This document shows positions 50,856-62,176 of a DNA stretch of 64,000 bases, one piece after another; the stretch's first letter is position 1, and the number at the start of each line of letters is the position of its first letter. Both the position numbers and the translations under genes were made by a program. Origin of the DNA: a virus. The stretch spans positions 62,001-126,000 of IMG/VR virus record IMGVR_UViG_3300007735_000926. One strand, given 5' to 3'. The notes beneath the pieces are model-generated. The model ran no database searches, had not been told where the DNA came from, and saw only the letters and a list, made by a program, of their open reading frames with translations.

Positions 50856-50883
50856 TTGACAAATTCAAAAGTTGGATTAAATT
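50856..50883 (+). promoter_or_regulatory. Sigma-70-like promoter upstream of tRNA-His
   Basis: TTGACA at 50856-50861, 16-nt spacer, TAAATT at 50878-50883, about 20 nt before the tRNA. Divergent from the DUF1353 gene. Confidence 0.5.
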
Positions 50884-50904
50884 GGAAAATATCTGAATAA
50901 AATG

Positions 50905-50978
50905 TGGACCATAGCTTAATGGTAAAGCCGACGATTGTGATTCGTCCTATGAGAGTTCGATTCTCTCTGGTCCAACCA
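50905..50978 (+). tRNA. tRNA-His (GTG) with A73
   Basis: Acceptor TGGACCA pairs perfectly with TGGTCCA; D-stem GCTT/AAGC; anticodon stem GACGA/TCGTC with loop TTGTGAT (GTG); T-stem GAGAG/CTCTC; discriminator A, then encoded CCA. Base -1 in the gene (50904) is G, but it faces A73, not the C73 of usual bacterial tRNA-His. A Thg1-like gene lies 570 nt downstream. Confidence 0.93.
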
Positions 50979-51013
50979 TCTTCTATTTTTGAGAAAAAAA
51001 AAATAATATTTAT

Positions 51014-51108
51014 GGAGAGTAATGCAGCCTCGGTGGTTGTCGCTGTTTGCTAAACAGAGGGAGGTCATGAACAATGGCCTTTCGGTTCGATCCCGATGCT
51101 CTCCTCCA
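51014..51108 (+). tRNA. tRNA-Ser (GCT)
   Basis: Acceptor GGAGAGT/GCTCTCC (last pair T-G), anticodon loop TTGCTAA (GCT), long variable arm as expected for Ser, T-loop TTCGATC, encoded CCA. Discriminator appears to be T and position 8 A, both atypical for Ser, so folding or charging may be unusual. Confidence 0.8.
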
Positions 51109-51114
51109 TTAGGG

Positions 51115-51143
51115 TTGACAAACTGAATTTCTGTGCTTAAATA
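51115..51143 (+). promoter_or_regulatory. Sigma-70-like promoter for the RlpA-Thg1-ThyX operon
   Basis: TTGACA at 51115-51120, 17-nt spacer, TAAATA at 51138-51143, 8 nt before the ATG at 51152. Spacing fits a host-type promoter, not the 5-nt late rule. Confidence 0.5.
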
Positions 51144-51151
51144 CACACCGT

Positions 51152-51544
51152 ATGAAGACATTACTGACAACAGCATTACTTCTTATTTTCTCGGTCAGCT
51201 GCTCCGCTGTAAAGCCAGCAAGCAATCCGTTGAAATCAAGCAACCCAACAAAAGTCCAAACCGGAAAAGCATCATGGTATAGCACCTTCTGCAACAAAGG
51301 AAGCAAGACAGCCAGCGGTGAACGTTTGAACAATAACAGTTCGACAGCAGCCCACAAAACGCTTCCCTTGGGAACCAAGGTGAAAGTTATTAACGTGAGC
51401 AATGGTAAAAGCGAAATTGTTAAAATCTCTGATCGTGGTCCTTACGTAAAGGGTCGAATCATTGATGTGACTGTCGGGGTTGCGTCCCGCCTTGGATTCA
51501 AATCTCAAGGTGTCGCAGATGTTAGAATCGAAGTCCTTCAATAA
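51152..51544 (+). CDS. RlpA-like lipoprotein (double-psi beta-barrel)
   Basis: 130 residues. Signal peptide MKTLLTTALLLIFSVSC with lipobox V-S-C; then a short linker and an RlpA-type barrel: TGKASWYSTFCNKGSKTASGERLN, AAHKTLPLGTKVKVINVSNG, ISDRGPYVKGRIIDVT. The Glu (SGERLN), His (AAHKTLP) and Asp (SDRGP) of RlpA lytic transglycosylases are all present; no SPOR domain follows. It may act on denuded peptidoglycan from the outer membrane. First gene of the unit with thg1-like and thyX. Confidence 0.85.
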   Translation: MKTLLTTALLLIFSVSCSAVKPASNPLKSSNPTKVQTGKASWYSTFCNKGSKTASGERLNNNSSTAAHKTLPLGTKVKVINVSNGKSEIVKISDRGPYVKGRIIDVTVGVASRLGFKSQGVADVRIEVLQ

Positions 51545-51545
51545 T

Positions 51546-52235
51546 ATGGCAACACAAGATAATCTAGGTGATAGGTGTAAAAAATACGAAAGTACATTTG
51601 AAAATTATTTTCTAAGAAAAACACCAATCATAGTTCGAGTCGATGGTAAAGGATTTAGCAAATGGACAAAAGGATGTGCCCGTCCATATGACCAATCTTT
51701 GATCGACACCATGTTTAAATCAGCAAAACAAGTTGCTTCGTCAATGCAGGGTTGCAAAGCATTGTATGCTCAAAGTGATGAAGTAACTTTCTTGCTTCTT
51801 GATGACGGAGATGAAAATACCCAACAATGGTTTGGTGGTCGCCAGAATAAAATCGAGAGCATTACATCTGCTATGATGACTGCATTCTTCAATAGGAATT
51901 GGTTTGGTGAGAACCCAACATCTACAAAAAACCCTGCTATATTTGACGCTAGAGCATTTCAATGCCCGCGTGAAGATGTAAGCAATGTGTTTCTTTGGAG
52001 AGCAAAAGATTGGCAACGAAACAGCTTGAACATGTATTGCATGCAGCATTTTTCTCACAAGGAATTGCAAGGAAAAAGCAGAGATGACAGACATAACATG
52101 CTTGCTGCTATTGGTAAAAATTGGTCTGATGATGTAACACCACAGCAAAAGTTCGGATCTTTCTGGACATTAGCTGGTGATCATCTAAATGTTGAACCAA
52201 CTTACAGTTCTATCAATTCTATTATTTTCCCATGA
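51546..52235 (+). CDS. Thg1-like 3'-5' RNA polymerase (tRNA-His guanylyltransferase family)
   Basis: 229 residues from the ATG at 51546, 1 nt after the previous stop. PIIVRVDGKGFSKWTKG with D33 and YAQSDEVTFLL with D78-E79 are the metal-binding motifs of the reverse-polymerase palm; FDARAFQCP and WRAKDWQRNSLNM follow as in Thg1 and Thg1-like proteins. The eukaryotic HINNLYN motif is absent, as in bacterial TLPs, which repair 5'-truncated tRNAs. A tRNA-His with A73 lies just upstream. It overlaps thyX by 4 nt. Confidence 0.9.
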   Translation: MATQDNLGDRCKKYESTFENYFLRKTPIIVRVDGKGFSKWTKGCARPYDQSLIDTMFKSAKQVASSMQGCKALYAQSDEVTFLLLDDGDENTQQWFGGRQNKIESITSAMMTAFFNRNWFGENPTSTKNPAIFDARAFQCPREDVSNVFLWRAKDWQRNSLNMYCMQHFSHKELQGKSRDDRHNMLAAIGKNWSDDVTPQQKFGSFWTLAGDHLNVEPTYSSINSIIFP

Positions 52236-52897
52236 CTAATACAGTAAAACTACTCGGACATTACGGCTCAGATGAAATTATAGCTTGTTCAGCTTGGACT
52301 AGCACTTCTCGCGATTTGGATGAAGATAAGAAATCACGCATTCCCAATTTGATCAACATGCTTTGGTCAAATGGACATGAAACACCTTTTGAAAAGGGCG
52401 TTGTGCATTTCCTTGTTGATACCGATATCGCTTCACATATTCATTTGCTGAAGCATCGAATATCAAATATGAACGCTGAAAGTGCTCGATACAAAGAACT
52501 TAAGGAAGATAAATTTTATCTGCCTAATGATTGGATTGGTGTTAAAGCCAACACCAAAGCATTAATAATTGAAGATGAGGAGGATCATGATTGGTATGAT
52601 ATATTGGAACAATACACCAAGATTGGCAATGCTCTATATCACGATGCTCTAAAAGACTTGACAGAAGCAATTGGACGTAAACGCGCAAAAGAATCTGCTC
52701 GATTCTTCAAGACTTACAATTCCCAAATTCAAGGCGATGTAATGTTTAATATGCGATCCTTTGCCAATTTCCTCAAGCTTCGAAACAGCGAGCATGCTCA
52801 ATTAGAAATCCGAGAAGTAGCCGCTGAAATGCTAGAGTTGGTTAAGAATATTGAAGGTAATCCTTTTGAACATACTTTAAAAGCTTGGGGGTATTAA
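52232..52897 (+). CDS. thyX: Flavin-dependent thymidylate synthase ThyX
   Basis: 221 residues. LLKHRISNMNAESARY near residue 70 is the ThyX motif (R-H-R-x7-S family, here with KHR); HETPFEKGVVHFLVDTDIASHIHL precedes it, and the C-terminal NFLKLRNSEHAQLEIREVA carries the FAD/substrate-binding R and H-A-Q. Makes dTMP from dUMP using methylene-THF and NADPH. Together with NrdAB it supplies dTTP. Coupled by ATGA to the thg1-like gene. Confidence 0.93.
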   Translation: MTNTVKLLGHYGSDEIIACSAWTSTSRDLDEDKKSRIPNLINMLWSNGHETPFEKGVVHFLVDTDIASHIHLLKHRISNMNAESARYKELKEDKFYLPNDWIGVKANTKALIIEDEEDHDWYDILEQYTKIGNALYHDALKDLTEAIGRKRAKESARFFKTYNSQIQGDVMFNMRSFANFLKLRNSEHAQLEIREVAAEMLELVKNIEGNPFEHTLKAWGY

Positions 52898-55875: not shown

Positions 55876-56697
55876 ATGTTCAAGCAGAAAGATTTAATAA
55901 ATCTTGAAAATTTTTTAAGAATAATTTATGAACGACACGAAAAATACACTCCTGACAGAATCCCATCTGGAGCGGAACAAGGCTATTCTGGAAGAGGTGG
56001 AAAAAAACTCAAAGCTGCCACCGCTGTCGCTTACAGAAGCCATGAATCAATACGAGATGATTCGATCCCAGAGTTCACAGCGGAAAAAGAATACAAGAAA
56101 AAGGTCGCTGGTAGAAATGTGATGTCGCAACGGGTAAAGCCCGTGGAAGAAAAATGGCTAACCCATTGGGCAAATCAAGTCGGCCTAATGATGGACAATG
56201 ACGAATTTGATCGCGAATGGAGAAAGCAAGGTGAAAAAGGAGAAGCGGAGAACAATGTGTATTTTGATGAAGCATCACAAAGATGGTTCAAAAGAAATAA
56301 TCTGTCTTATCACACCACATTTTTAGAGTTCTTTTACAGACTTGCATTGCACAATGCGTCTTTTCCTGAAGCTCCCTATGCATTGGAAGGTTTTGTCATA
56401 AATGATGGAGAATTGCAACCAGTTATTTCACAACCTCATGTTCGAGCCACAAAAGGCGCATCTCCTGTAGATGTCGAACGATTAATGAATAAATTGGGTT
56501 ATTCAAAAATTCCGGGCACTCAGCACGATTACATCAATCAAGAAAAAGGAATTCGTGTGGAAGACATGCACGATGAGAATGTCTTGATGGATGATGATGG
56601 GAATATCTTTGTGGTTGATCCTGTAATCTATTTGGATGATGAGGGAAAGAAACATCGCATCACATCCAAAGATCCTTTGTTACACGAGCTTAAATAA
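55876..56697 (+). CDS. Protein kinase-like protein (polyvalent-protein kinase type)
   Basis: 273 residues. From about residue 125: EAENNVYFDEASQRWFKRNNLSYHTTFLEFFYRLALHN gives a lysine and helix-C-like region; ALEGFV is the hinge; MHDENVLMDDDGNIFVVDPV is a catalytic-loop H-D-x-N followed by a D-P-V metal motif in place of DFG. The same order occurs in kinase domains of phage polyvalent proteins. The basic N-terminus (YSGRGGKKLKAATAVAYRSH) is separate. Late start TAAATA-ATAAC-ATG suggests it is packaged or acts late. Substrate unknown. Confidence 0.6.
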   Translation: MFKQKDLINLENFLRIIYERHEKYTPDRIPSGAEQGYSGRGGKKLKAATAVAYRSHESIRDDSIPEFTAEKEYKKKVAGRNVMSQRVKPVEEKWLTHWANQVGLMMDNDEFDREWRKQGEKGEAENNVYFDEASQRWFKRNNLSYHTTFLEFFYRLALHNASFPEAPYALEGFVINDGELQPVISQPHVRATKGASPVDVERLMNKLGYSKIPGTQHDYINQEKGIRVEDMHDENVLMDDDGNIFVVDPVIYLDDEGKKHRITSKDPLLHELK

Positions 56698-56701
56698 TAT
56701 T

Positions 56702-56926
56702 ATGAAAAAATTCTCCGATTTCTTTGACGAATACTTCAAAAAAGTTAAAAAGACCAATCTCCCTAAGAAAGAAGTATCAAAGGGAGAAAAGGTTGAGCAA
56801 GAACATGTTGCGCCATCCAAGCGCAAATCTAAACAAGGAAAGAAAATCGCAAGAACGATTTCCAAACAGCATGTCGAAGAAGATCCCAAGTATTACTCTA
56901 AAATGGAGAAATGGCACAAGGATTAA
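56702..56926 (+). CDS. Small basic late protein
   Basis: 74 residues from the ATG at 56702 (TAAATA-ATATT-ATG); the longer frame from 56636 runs into the kinase-like gene. Lys-rich throughout (SKRKSKQGKKIARTISKQ). Could be a DNA-binding or core-type protein. Convergent with the CCA-enzyme fusion by a 4-nt overlap. Confidence 0.65.
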   Translation: MKKFSDFFDEYFKKVKKTNLPKKEVSKGEKVEQEHVAPSKRKSKQGKKIARTISKQHVEEDPKYYSKMEKWHKD

Positions 56927-59370
56927 TTTTTCTGGTAAAAATTATACCATTCATTGAATTGGCTATTCTTTAGAATACCAGCAACGATTGTCTTCATTTC
57001 CGAATCATCTGGTTCTCTACCAGCATTCAATTCTTCCAGAACGTATTCTTGAAGGGCTGCTGTAATATCTTTGAATTTGGATTTATCTTTGATCAGAATT
57101 GGAAACCATTGCATCAATTTTTCACCACTGAAATATTGCTTGAGTCGTTTTCTTGTTTCATCTTGAGAACCCCCAATTTTAGAAACTTTTTCTTCCGCTC
57201 TTTTAACTTTGTCCCAGAATTCTTCTTCGTTGAAAAGACCAGAACCTCTCGAAGCTTCGTCACAATATCCAACAGCTTTAATGGTTTCCCATGCAGGATT
57301 TTGAATCAATTTTGTCAATGTTTTAATATTGAGTTTATCAAGATTGTGAACAAGCATGTGTCTGTCAACTGCTGCTAATATATTCTTTTTATCTTGAGGA
57401 GATAATTCAGAAAATCGCAATCTTTTGAAAATATTCTCTACGATTGGAACTCCAGCAGCTTCGTGTCCATGATAGCTACTAAAACCATTATCTTTCTTGC
57501 CTCTTGTCGTAGCCTTTCCAAAATCGTGGAATAACACGGCAAGATTTATCACTGGATCTTTATATGGGGAAGCATTCAAACATTCATAGATGTGTCCCAA
57601 CACCTGCGAATCTCCTTCAGGATGATGCTCAGGATCATGATCGAAACCTTCCATCTCGGTGAACTCTGGAAGAATATCATGTAAGATTTTTGTATCTTGT
57701 AATTTTTTCAGAAAGTTTGCAAGAGTTCTACCAGACTTTGCAGACTTGTAAAATTCTTTTGAGATACTTTCTTTGGAAATTGCTTTCGGATCTTGAAGCA
57801 AATGTTTCAATTCAATTGCTGCTCTTTTGGTATTATCCTCAATTTCAAAATCCATCTTGGCAGCAAAACGGAAAACACGAAGAATTCTTGTGGCATCTTC
57901 CAAAAATCTTTTCTTGGCATCTCCCACAGCACGAACGATTTTGTTTTTCAAATCATCAAGACCACCTTGATAATCCACGATCTTCCCATTCTCATCCAAT
58001 CCGAAAGAGTTGATTGTTAAATCTCTTCTCTCTGAATCCTTTTCAAATGAATCAGTCTCAGTCGAGACATTGGCTTGTCTACCGATGTCGCCTGAGTCAG
58101 TTCTGAATTTTGCTAAATCATATACATATCCTTTCCAAATGATAGCATAAACTGGTTGTGAATCATTCTTGGAAATATTTCTCAATTCAAAATGTTTCTC
58201 CAACTGTTCCACGGGAATGTTGGTGGCCAAATCAACATCATCGATTGCATTTCCCATGAGCAAATCACGAGGAACACCACCGACAATATAAATTTCACCT
58301 TTTAATCTCGATTTGATATTTTTCATCAAATCGAGAGCTACTTGAAGTTCTTCCGATTCGGAAACAGCTTTTTCCCATTTCTGATCGAAGTCTTCTACAT
58401 ATTCTTTAATTAACATTTTATATTGATAGTTAAACGATTCTAAATATTTTTCAGTATTTTTTAACAAATTGAAATGGTCGGCACTTATCTTTTTATGCGC
58501 ATTTTTTGCACTCGATTTTTTATTTAATCCTAATCTTTCAATTTCTTTTTTCAATTTTTCAGTATTTCCTTTGTTTCTGAAATATGGTGTTTGTCCTATT
58601 CTATTACCTTCTTTATCGATAGTAATAATGTTTTTATTTTCTGGTTTTTGTTTAGCGGTTGATCCGGGGTCTGGAAGATTGAAATGGGTTTTTCTCGAAA
58701 CAATTTCACACCAATCGTCCCATAAAATTTTGCTAATCGGATCAGCAAAAGTGATATACTCAATTATTTTTTTCATATTGCCGGAACTACGAATATTTCC
58801 ACTCACCTTCGCATTGATTTCCGAACCATATAATTTAGAATTGATACTATCAACACAACCCAATCTACCTGTGATCAATTGCACCAAAAAACCTGCTTTT
58901 GGCATAGCCAATCCTTTAATATTTTCTAAAATCCATATATACATTTCAACTGGATCATTTTTATATTCTCCCAATTTTTCATAATTTTCTTTTCTATTGG
59001 TCCAAGCTCCGAGAACATATGACAATTTATCACTGGGTCCGCCGACATCTTTTTTCGGACTCATGATCATATGACCAGTTCGGGGTGGTTGTATATTGGA
59101 TACAATTTTTTTATTCTTTAAAGCATTTTCAAAAAACCATTTTATAAATTCGGGAAATTGTTCAACCACATTATACCAAGATGTTTGCATTGTAAACATC
59201 ACAAATGCTATAACGATAAACATTTTTTCAGGACTCTCAAAAGCAAATTTATTTATTTGGGGATTATATTCACAAAAACCACTTTCGCTATCTTTTTTCG
59301 GAACCTGAATTTTATATTCAGGTGACCAAACCTCCATCAACTTTTTATAAAGGGAATTGAATCTTTTCAT
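56923..59370 (-). CDS. tRNA CCA-adding/poly(A)-polymerase-family enzyme with HD domain and long N-terminal extension
   Basis: 815 residues, twice the usual CCA-enzyme length. Residues 1 to about 340 are an extra domain with GLAMPKAGFLVQLITGRLGCVDSINSKLYG, a helix-hairpin type motif seen in marine phage proteins. The nucleotidyltransferase starts near 350: EIYIVGGVPRDLLMGNAIDDVDLAT (GG...DxD), RRDLTINSFGLDENGKIVDYQGGLDDL and ATRILRVFRFAAKMDF. An HD phosphohydrolase part follows (INLAVLFHDFGKATT, HGHEAAGVPIVE). It can add or repair the CCA end; five tRNAs of this phage lack an encoded CCA. Poly(A) polymerase is the alternative reading. Confidence 0.85.
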   Translation of the reverse strand: MKRFNSLYKKLMEVWSPEYKIQVPKKDSESGFCEYNPQINKFAFESPEKMFIVIAFVMFTMQTSWYNVVEQFPEFIKWFFENALKNKKIVSNIQPPRTGHMIMSPKKDVGGPSDKLSYVLGAWTNRKENYEKLGEYKNDPVEMYIWILENIKGLAMPKAGFLVQLITGRLGCVDSINSKLYGSEINAKVSGNIRSSGNMKKIIEYITFADPISKILWDDWCEIVSRKTHFNLPDPGSTAKQKPENKNIITIDKEGNRIGQTPYFRNKGNTEKLKKEIERLGLNKKSSAKNAHKKISADHFNLLKNTEKYLESFNYQYKMLIKEYVEDFDQKWEKAVSESEELQVALDLMKNIKSRLKGEIYIVGGVPRDLLMGNAIDDVDLATNIPVEQLEKHFELRNISKNDSQPVYAIIWKGYVYDLAKFRTDSGDIGRQANVSTETDSFEKDSERRDLTINSFGLDENGKIVDYQGGLDDLKNKIVRAVGDAKKRFLEDATRILRVFRFAAKMDFEIEDNTKRAAIELKHLLQDPKAISKESISKEFYKSAKSGRTLANFLKKLQDTKILHDILPEFTEMEGFDHDPEHHPEGDSQVLGHIYECLNASPYKDPVINLAVLFHDFGKATTRGKKDNGFSSYHGHEAAGVPIVENIFKRLRFSELSPQDKKNILAAVDRHMLVHNLDKLNIKTLTKLIQNPAWETIKAVGYCDEASRGSGLFNEEEFWDKVKRAEEKVSKIGGSQDETRKRLKQYFSGEKLMQWFPILIKDKSKFKDITAALQEYVLEELNAGREPDDSEMKTIVAGILKNSQFNEWYNFYQKN

Positions 59371-61073: not shown

Positions 61074-61147
61074 TGGCAGGGGATGAGGGAGTCGAACCCT
61101 CGCTAACAGAATCAAAATCTGCGGTGCTACCATTACACCAACCCCCA
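61074..61147 (-). tRNA. tRNA-Gln (TTG)
   Basis: Acceptor TGGGGGT/ATCCCCT with an open first pair (T-T), as tolerated in Gln tRNAs; anticodon stem GCAGA/TCTGT with loop TTTTGAT (TTG); T-stem GAGGG/CCCTC; discriminator G; encoded CCA. Confidence 0.92.
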
Positions 61148-62101: not shown

Positions 62102-62176
62102 TGGTGCGCTCTGAGGGACTCGAACCCTCAAGACCCACTTGGAAGGAGGGCATGTTAGCCATTACATCAAGAGCGC
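62102..62176 (-). tRNA. tRNA-Gly (TCC)
   Basis: Acceptor GCGCTCT/AGAGCGC, anticodon loop CTTCCAA (TCC), T-stem GAGGG/CCCTC, discriminator A, encoded CCA. The anticodon stem has one T-T mismatch. Confidence 0.9.

Follow-up and report, generated by a model that had tools for sequence, protein, structure and literature searches.

A phage Thg1-like protein encoded beside an A73 tRNA-His does not track phage tRNA-His genes and is a candidate for RNA 5′-end repair

We found that the Thg1-like protein (TLP; 3′-5′ nucleotidyltransferase family) encoded beside an A73 tRNA-His gene in a large phage does not track tRNA-His or A73 among phages. The reading we prefer, to which we give a probability of roughly 0.6, is that TLP would act in general tRNA or RNA 5′-end repair during infection. 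The window, that is, the whole 64,000-nt stretch of DNA analysed, corresponds to positions 62001-126000 of the 197,682-bp virus record IMGVR_UViG_3300007735_000926; coordinates are those of the window unless given as record positions. Gene content identifies the source phage as a large T4-like myovirus, with a gp23-type major head protein, a gp20-type portal, gp32, a RecA/UvsX-like recombinase and a DnaB-type helicase, the head proteins being only about 26-33% identical to those of isolates.

The TLP gene (51546..52235, + strand, 229 aa) begins at ATG 51546; the TTG start at 51480 of the program-made open reading frame falls within the preceding gene, which encodes an rlpA-like lipoprotein (DPBB lytic transglycosylase; 51152..51544, +, 130 aa; PF03330, 6.8e-22). 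The stop codon of TLP is overlapped (ATGA) by the start of thyX, encoding an FAD thymidylate synthase (52232..52897, +, open reading frame coordinates; PF02511, 2.7e-32), so TLP and thyX likely form one operon. Upstream of rlpA lie two tRNA genes predicted by ARAGORN, tRNA-His(GUG) (50905..50978, +) and tRNA-Ser(GCU) (51014..51108, +). As the first-pass annotation had noted, TLP lies less than 600 nt from tRNA-His, the gap from the tRNA 3′ end to the TLP start being 567 nt. Its placement of TLP in a nearby promoter unit is plausible: a candidate promoter, TTGACA-17-TTAAAT, read by eye and below the scan threshold, is found between tRNA-Ser and rlpA, and the nearest relative of the phage has kept it (see below). 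The sigma-70-like sequence upstream of tRNA-His, TTGACA-16-TAAATT (50856..50883, +; 10/12 in the consensus scan), is of a kind that is no more frequent in this region than in shuffled sequence. A protein with a polyvalent-type Ser/Thr/Tyr kinase domain is also encoded near the tRNA/TLP region (55876-56697). Further away are genes for a nicotinate phosphoribosyltransferase (record 169,725-170,585; L009:5725-6585) and a ribose-phosphate pyrophosphokinase (record 175,538-176,479; L009:11538-12479), a possible NAD salvage pair, and RHS repeats are fused to DUF7666 in three paralogues (L007:11423-12238, L009:2668-3180 and L009:3966-4541).

TLP matched the Thg1 catalytic domain, PF04446, at 1.7e-28, scoring 99.6 bits where the cut-off is 29.2. 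Its best solved relative was the TLP of Bacillus thuringiensis (BtTLP, 4kgk; 2e-42), to which it scored 148.7 bits, as against 35-56 bits to eukaryotic Thg1. The AlphaFold model (pLDDT 93) gave the same picture in a Foldseek search, with a TM score of 0.90 to BtTLP (4kgm; 33% identity) and of about 0.8 to eukaryotic Thg1. The residues R31, D33, G34, Q76-S77-D78-E79, K102, D134, R136, W151 and R152 were invariant among the phage proteins aligned (sets of 21 and 26) and in comparison with BtTLP, so that the metal-binding carboxylates and the activation and transfer residues (RxDG, QSDE, K, DxR, WR) are all present. The HINNLYN motif of the eukaryotic enzymes is absent from TLP, where the aligned region reads WQRNSLNMYC. 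By sequence and predicted structure, the gene product belongs with bacterial TLPs, not with eukaryotic-type Thg1. The closest proteins from isolates are only 46% identical to it, and the closest of all (57-89%) come from uncultivated phages. Compared with the TLP of the nearest relative, IMG/VR contig 3300032304_001768 (hereafter L002; 89% identity), dN was 0.075 and dS 1.9 (dN/dS about 0.04; this dS is close to saturation and indicative only), and 93 of the 133 differences fell at third codon positions. By this substitution pattern, TLP is an intact phage gene under purifying selection.

We next consider the tRNA. The first-pass annotation was right that the phage tRNA-His has A73 (at 50975); the acceptor stem is fully paired, from U1-A72 through A7-U66, and CCA is encoded after A73. 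It had missed, however, that the base directly 5′ of the tRNA (50904, +) is G, that is, G-1 is encoded in the gene. Since G at this position occurs in only 1/45 other tRNAs of the source phage and L002, and in 24/539 tRNAs of a TLP-negative phage set, the encoded G-1 is probably not accidental. A73 is able to pair with U294 of RNase P RNA (PMC11143913), a pairing that may favour removal of G-1 by +1 cleavage. Unusual discriminators occur elsewhere in this phage: tRNA-Ser(GCU) has U73 and tRNA-Gly(UCC) (62102-62176) has A73, neither being the usual bacterial base (table in PMC9976931), so loose discriminators look like a general property of its tRNAs. On the best explanation, tRNA-His is simply one of the ordinary tRNAs of this phage, its discriminator being non-standard and its G-1 independent of TLP. 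Another phage tRNA, tRNA-Gln (61074-61147), has U1.U72, a mismatch often seen in unrelated phages whether or not they encode TLP.

The comparison with L002 separates the two genes. The DNA block common to both phages (51008-52250 against L002 9456-10705; 82.9% identity by blastn) contains tRNA-Ser, rlpA and TLP and leaves tRNA-His outside. L002 does have a tRNA-His, but this one lies 2.6 kb upstream of TLP and is a different gene, having C-1, A73, an A4.G69 mismatch and no encoded CCA. On this comparison we rejected tRNA-His and TLP as a conserved pair. The portal proteins of the two phages are only 60% identical, as against 89% for TLP; either transfer of the block between lineages or its slower evolution might account for this. 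Downstream of it, the thyX genes are alike only over about the last 24 codons (52824-52897 against L002:11828-11901; 85% nucleotide identity) and differ elsewhere, a pattern that looks like an internal recombination breakpoint; L002 has an HNH-like open reading frame between TLP and thyX. Among 35 records related by portal protein, 34 had no Thg1 match, including records of 150-207 kb. A tRNA-His-like pattern was found in three portal-related records, with ARAGORN confirming tRNA-His only in L002, and the eight largest other records searched had 0 to 15 tRNAs, none of them tRNA-His. Within this clade the two TLP-encoding genomes are thus the only ones with tRNA-His, a coincidence with an n of 2 in a set where many records are fragments.

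To look beyond the clade, we used both genes as starting points. TLP is present in at least 125 phage records, and an alignment search returned more than 580 TLP-encoding contigs. A tRNA-His pattern blind to position 73, run on IMG/VR, found 60 tRNA-His genes (52 with C73 and 8 with A73); a Thg1 match was present in only 1/48 records among those with a pattern-found tRNA-His, and A73 tRNA-His without TLP was seen in contigs of 115-175 kb. In the reverse sample, picked by TLP alone (32 contigs of at least 100 kb, tRNA-rich parts only), 14 records had a tRNA-His: 11 were canonical G-1:C73, two had U73 and one had an A73 copy. Four of the 32 had no hit with the tRNA-His covariance model, a model that also catches other tRNAs. 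A73 was therefore found in 1/14 records with TLP and in 7/42 without (p=0.66), many TLP-negative contigs being incomplete and some possibly mislabelled. The first 12 TLP-encoding records with tRNA-His, mostly named isolates, had suggested otherwise, with non-C73 in 9/12 against 7/42. Five of these 12, however, infect Caulobacter, Brevundimonas, Agrobacterium, Sinorhizobium or (by name) Ruegeria, and the Caulobacterales/Rhizobiales/Rhodobacteraceae-type clade itself uses A73 tRNA-His (PMC3937112). The early excess being gone in the IMG/VR records, we rejected a tie between TLP and A73. In addition, tRNAs were not detected in three TLP-encoding phages (Vibrio P1, Aeromonas 2L372D and 201phi2-1), and TLP-encoding phage Kalah2 has one, suggesting that, at least in such phages, TLP probably acts on host RNA. 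With tRNAs undetected in some phages and others encoding G-1:C73, tRNA-His maturation explains most phage TLPs poorly, and an A73 tRNA-His beside TLP is by itself no evidence for a functional pair.

The caveat of the first-pass annotation that some alphaproteobacteria use A73, so that host type matters, was sound. The closest cellular matches of the rlpA-like protein are an Akkermansiaceae gene set among cellular-looking neighbours (72% identity over 95 aa) and Luteolibacter proteins (59-61%); this one gene tentatively suggests a Verrucomicrobiota host. In the order containing Luteolibacter all tRNA-His genes read with the covariance model (27/27) were G-1:C73, and a Thg1-family gene was present in 3/57 genomes. 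An alphaproteobacterial host as the source of A73 is thus not supported, and if the Verrucomicrobiota assignment is right, A73 is unusual for the host.

What, then, might TLP do? Characterised TLPs perform templated repair of 5′-truncated tRNAs of any identity (PMC3701042, PMC6471195), and TLP is predicted, probably correctly, to be able to rebuild damaged tRNA 5′ ends. Using ATP or GTP, it would activate the 5′-monophosphate of 5′-truncated tRNAs (or other RNAs) and refill the missing nucleotides in the 3′-to-5′ direction with the 3′ acceptor strand as template, working beside other repair enzymes of the phage; tRNAs of host and phage would thereby stay usable after damage by host defence ribonucleases or after faulty processing. 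The genome does encode a set of RNA-repair genes: an Rnl1-family RNA ligase (record 161,996-163,012), a second RNA ligase with a PHA02142 OB fold (record 151,618-153,009), an RlaP RNA-repair nucleotidyltransferase (record 181,439-182,194), a phosphoesterase near the ligase (record 159,621-160,271) and a CCA-adding tRNA nucleotidyltransferase (56923..59370, - strand; phrog_2244, 3.4e-61; PolyA_pol, 3.7e-25). The last of these carries an N-terminal extension of about 350 aa with no Pfam match. No clear polynucleotide kinase was seen among the open reading frames scanned (many, not all, of the genome). In phage Kalah2 a polynucleotide kinase lies three genes from TLP, and neighbourhoods with such kinases and RNA ligases have been published for bacterial TLPs (PMC2904730). 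The repair genes of this genome and these neighbourhoods elsewhere support a role in RNA end repair.

Repair of 5′ ends cut by host nucleases was one of two readings offered by the first-pass annotation, and this candidate role fits TLP biochemistry, the TLP-encoding phages in which no tRNA was detected and the repair genes. Some points count against it. In this genome the RNA ligases and RlaP are encoded far away from TLP. The phage-triggered tRNA nucleases known so far mostly cut anticodons, we know of no defence nuclease established here that removes 5′ acceptor nucleotides, and, to our knowledge, no phage TLP has yet been assigned a substrate.

Alternatively, the substrate might be other than tRNA, for example phage mRNA at its 5′ ends or some other structured RNA. 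That TLPs persist where no phage tRNA genes are detected would agree with this, as would the fact that bacterial TLPs have no established in vivo substrate (PMC6471195). We nevertheless regard it as unlikely, because the TLPs characterised so far act on tRNA and the phage also encodes tRNA-end enzymes, such as the CCA-adding enzyme.

The remaining alternatives involve tRNA-His itself. RNase P might strip the unpaired G-1, after which TLP would add a templated U-1 opposite A73, giving an eight-pair stem tolerated by HisRS. The interaction of A73 with RNase P RNA (PMC11143913) is in line with such a pathway, and BtTLP, when it replaces yeast Thg1 in vivo, puts U-1 and not G-1 opposite A73 of tRNA-His, and the cell survives (PMC6471195). 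We nonetheless consider this pathway very unlikely, since TLP and A73 are not associated, A73 occurs without TLP even in the contigs of 115-175 kb, and the encoded G-1 would serve nothing.

The other reading of the first-pass annotation, that TLP, like eukaryotic Thg1, finishes the 5′ end of the phage tRNA-His with a G-1 placed opposite A73, did not survive, and we give it scarcely any credence. The proximity of the A73 gene, the restriction of tRNA-His to the two TLP-encoding genomes of the clade and the non-C73 excess in the first 12 records all spoke for it. However, G-1 is already encoded, and the enzyme is of the TLP type and lacks HINNLYN. Characterised TLPs prefer Watson-Crick pairs and are reported not to make non-Watson-Crick ones (PMC3701042), and in vitro BtTLP shows only weak addition of G-1 opposite A73 (PMC6471195); since these enzymes are Watson-Crick-templated and BtTLP puts U-1 there in vivo, a G-1:A73 product is not expected from TLP. 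The isolate excess includes the five phages of A73-clade hosts and vanishes in IMG/VR, TLP-encoding phages with G-1:C73 tRNA-His or with no detected tRNA are common, and in L002 the shared block lacks this tRNA-His, the one present being another gene with C-1. A combined version, in which TLP is co-adapted with the A73 tRNA-His, RNase P taking G-1 and TLP supplying position -1 (as U-1, or as G-1 by a relaxed activity), is in our estimate just as improbable; if it is true, a G-1:C73 host would contain a bacterial equivalent of the G-1:A73 tRNA-His known from eukaryotes.

The least probable alternative, that TLP edits encoded 5′ acceptor mismatches in the way that mitochondrial TLPs of some protists (Dictyostelium) correct them, can draw on tRNA-Gln (U1.U72), tRNA-Met (C1.U72) and tRNA-Ile(UAU) (C1.A72) of the source phage and on the preference of BtTLP for +1-truncated tRNA, but is rejected because position-1 mismatches are not enriched in TLP-encoding sets (6/268 and 6/513, against 13/541 in the TLP-negative set), reach 7/45 in TLP-negative clade relatives and, as U1.U72 in tRNA-Gln, are common without TLP.

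Among known systems, BtTLP (4kgk/4kgm) is close to the phage protein: it is the best match in sequence and fold, shares the metal-binding carboxylates and the activation and transfer residues, and likewise lacks HINNLYN. It differs in that the phage TLP, known from sequence and model, sits in an rlpA-TLP-thyX unit and is about 33% identical. Eukaryotic Thg1 (yeast, human) shares the superfamily and the fold (TM about 0.8), but has HINNLYN and makes non-templated G-1:A73, whereas the phage protein lacks the motif and scores far nearer to TLPs. The tRNA-His of Rhodobacteraceae, Rhizobiales, Caulobacterales and Hyphomonadaceae (PMC3937112) has A73 like that of the phage, but no encoded G-1, and goes with a divergent HisRS; the phage gene encodes G-1 (50904), and the likely host group is Verrucomicrobiota. 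As with T4 Pnkp/Rnl1, the T4-like source phage has an Rnl1-family ligase, together with a second RNA ligase, but TLP would fill 5′ ends instead of sealing anticodon breaks, and the scanned open reading frames included no clear polynucleotide kinase. Thg1/TLP genes of the same family are carried by Rhodococcus phages Grayson and Weasels2, the Mycobacterium Kalah2 group, Bc431v3, 201phi2-1, GAP32, phage G and the Caulobacter Ccr phages, and have already been annotated and discussed (PMC3601020, PMC7824862, PMC2904730). Both options considered here, tRNA-His maturation and repair, were posed by Anantharaman and colleagues (2010) for the Thg1 of phage 201phi2-1 and mimivirus (PMC2904730), and a jumbo-phage survey counts Thg1 among RNA-repair genes (PMC7824862). 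The present protein is a real, well-conserved member of a known phage gene family and not a new system.
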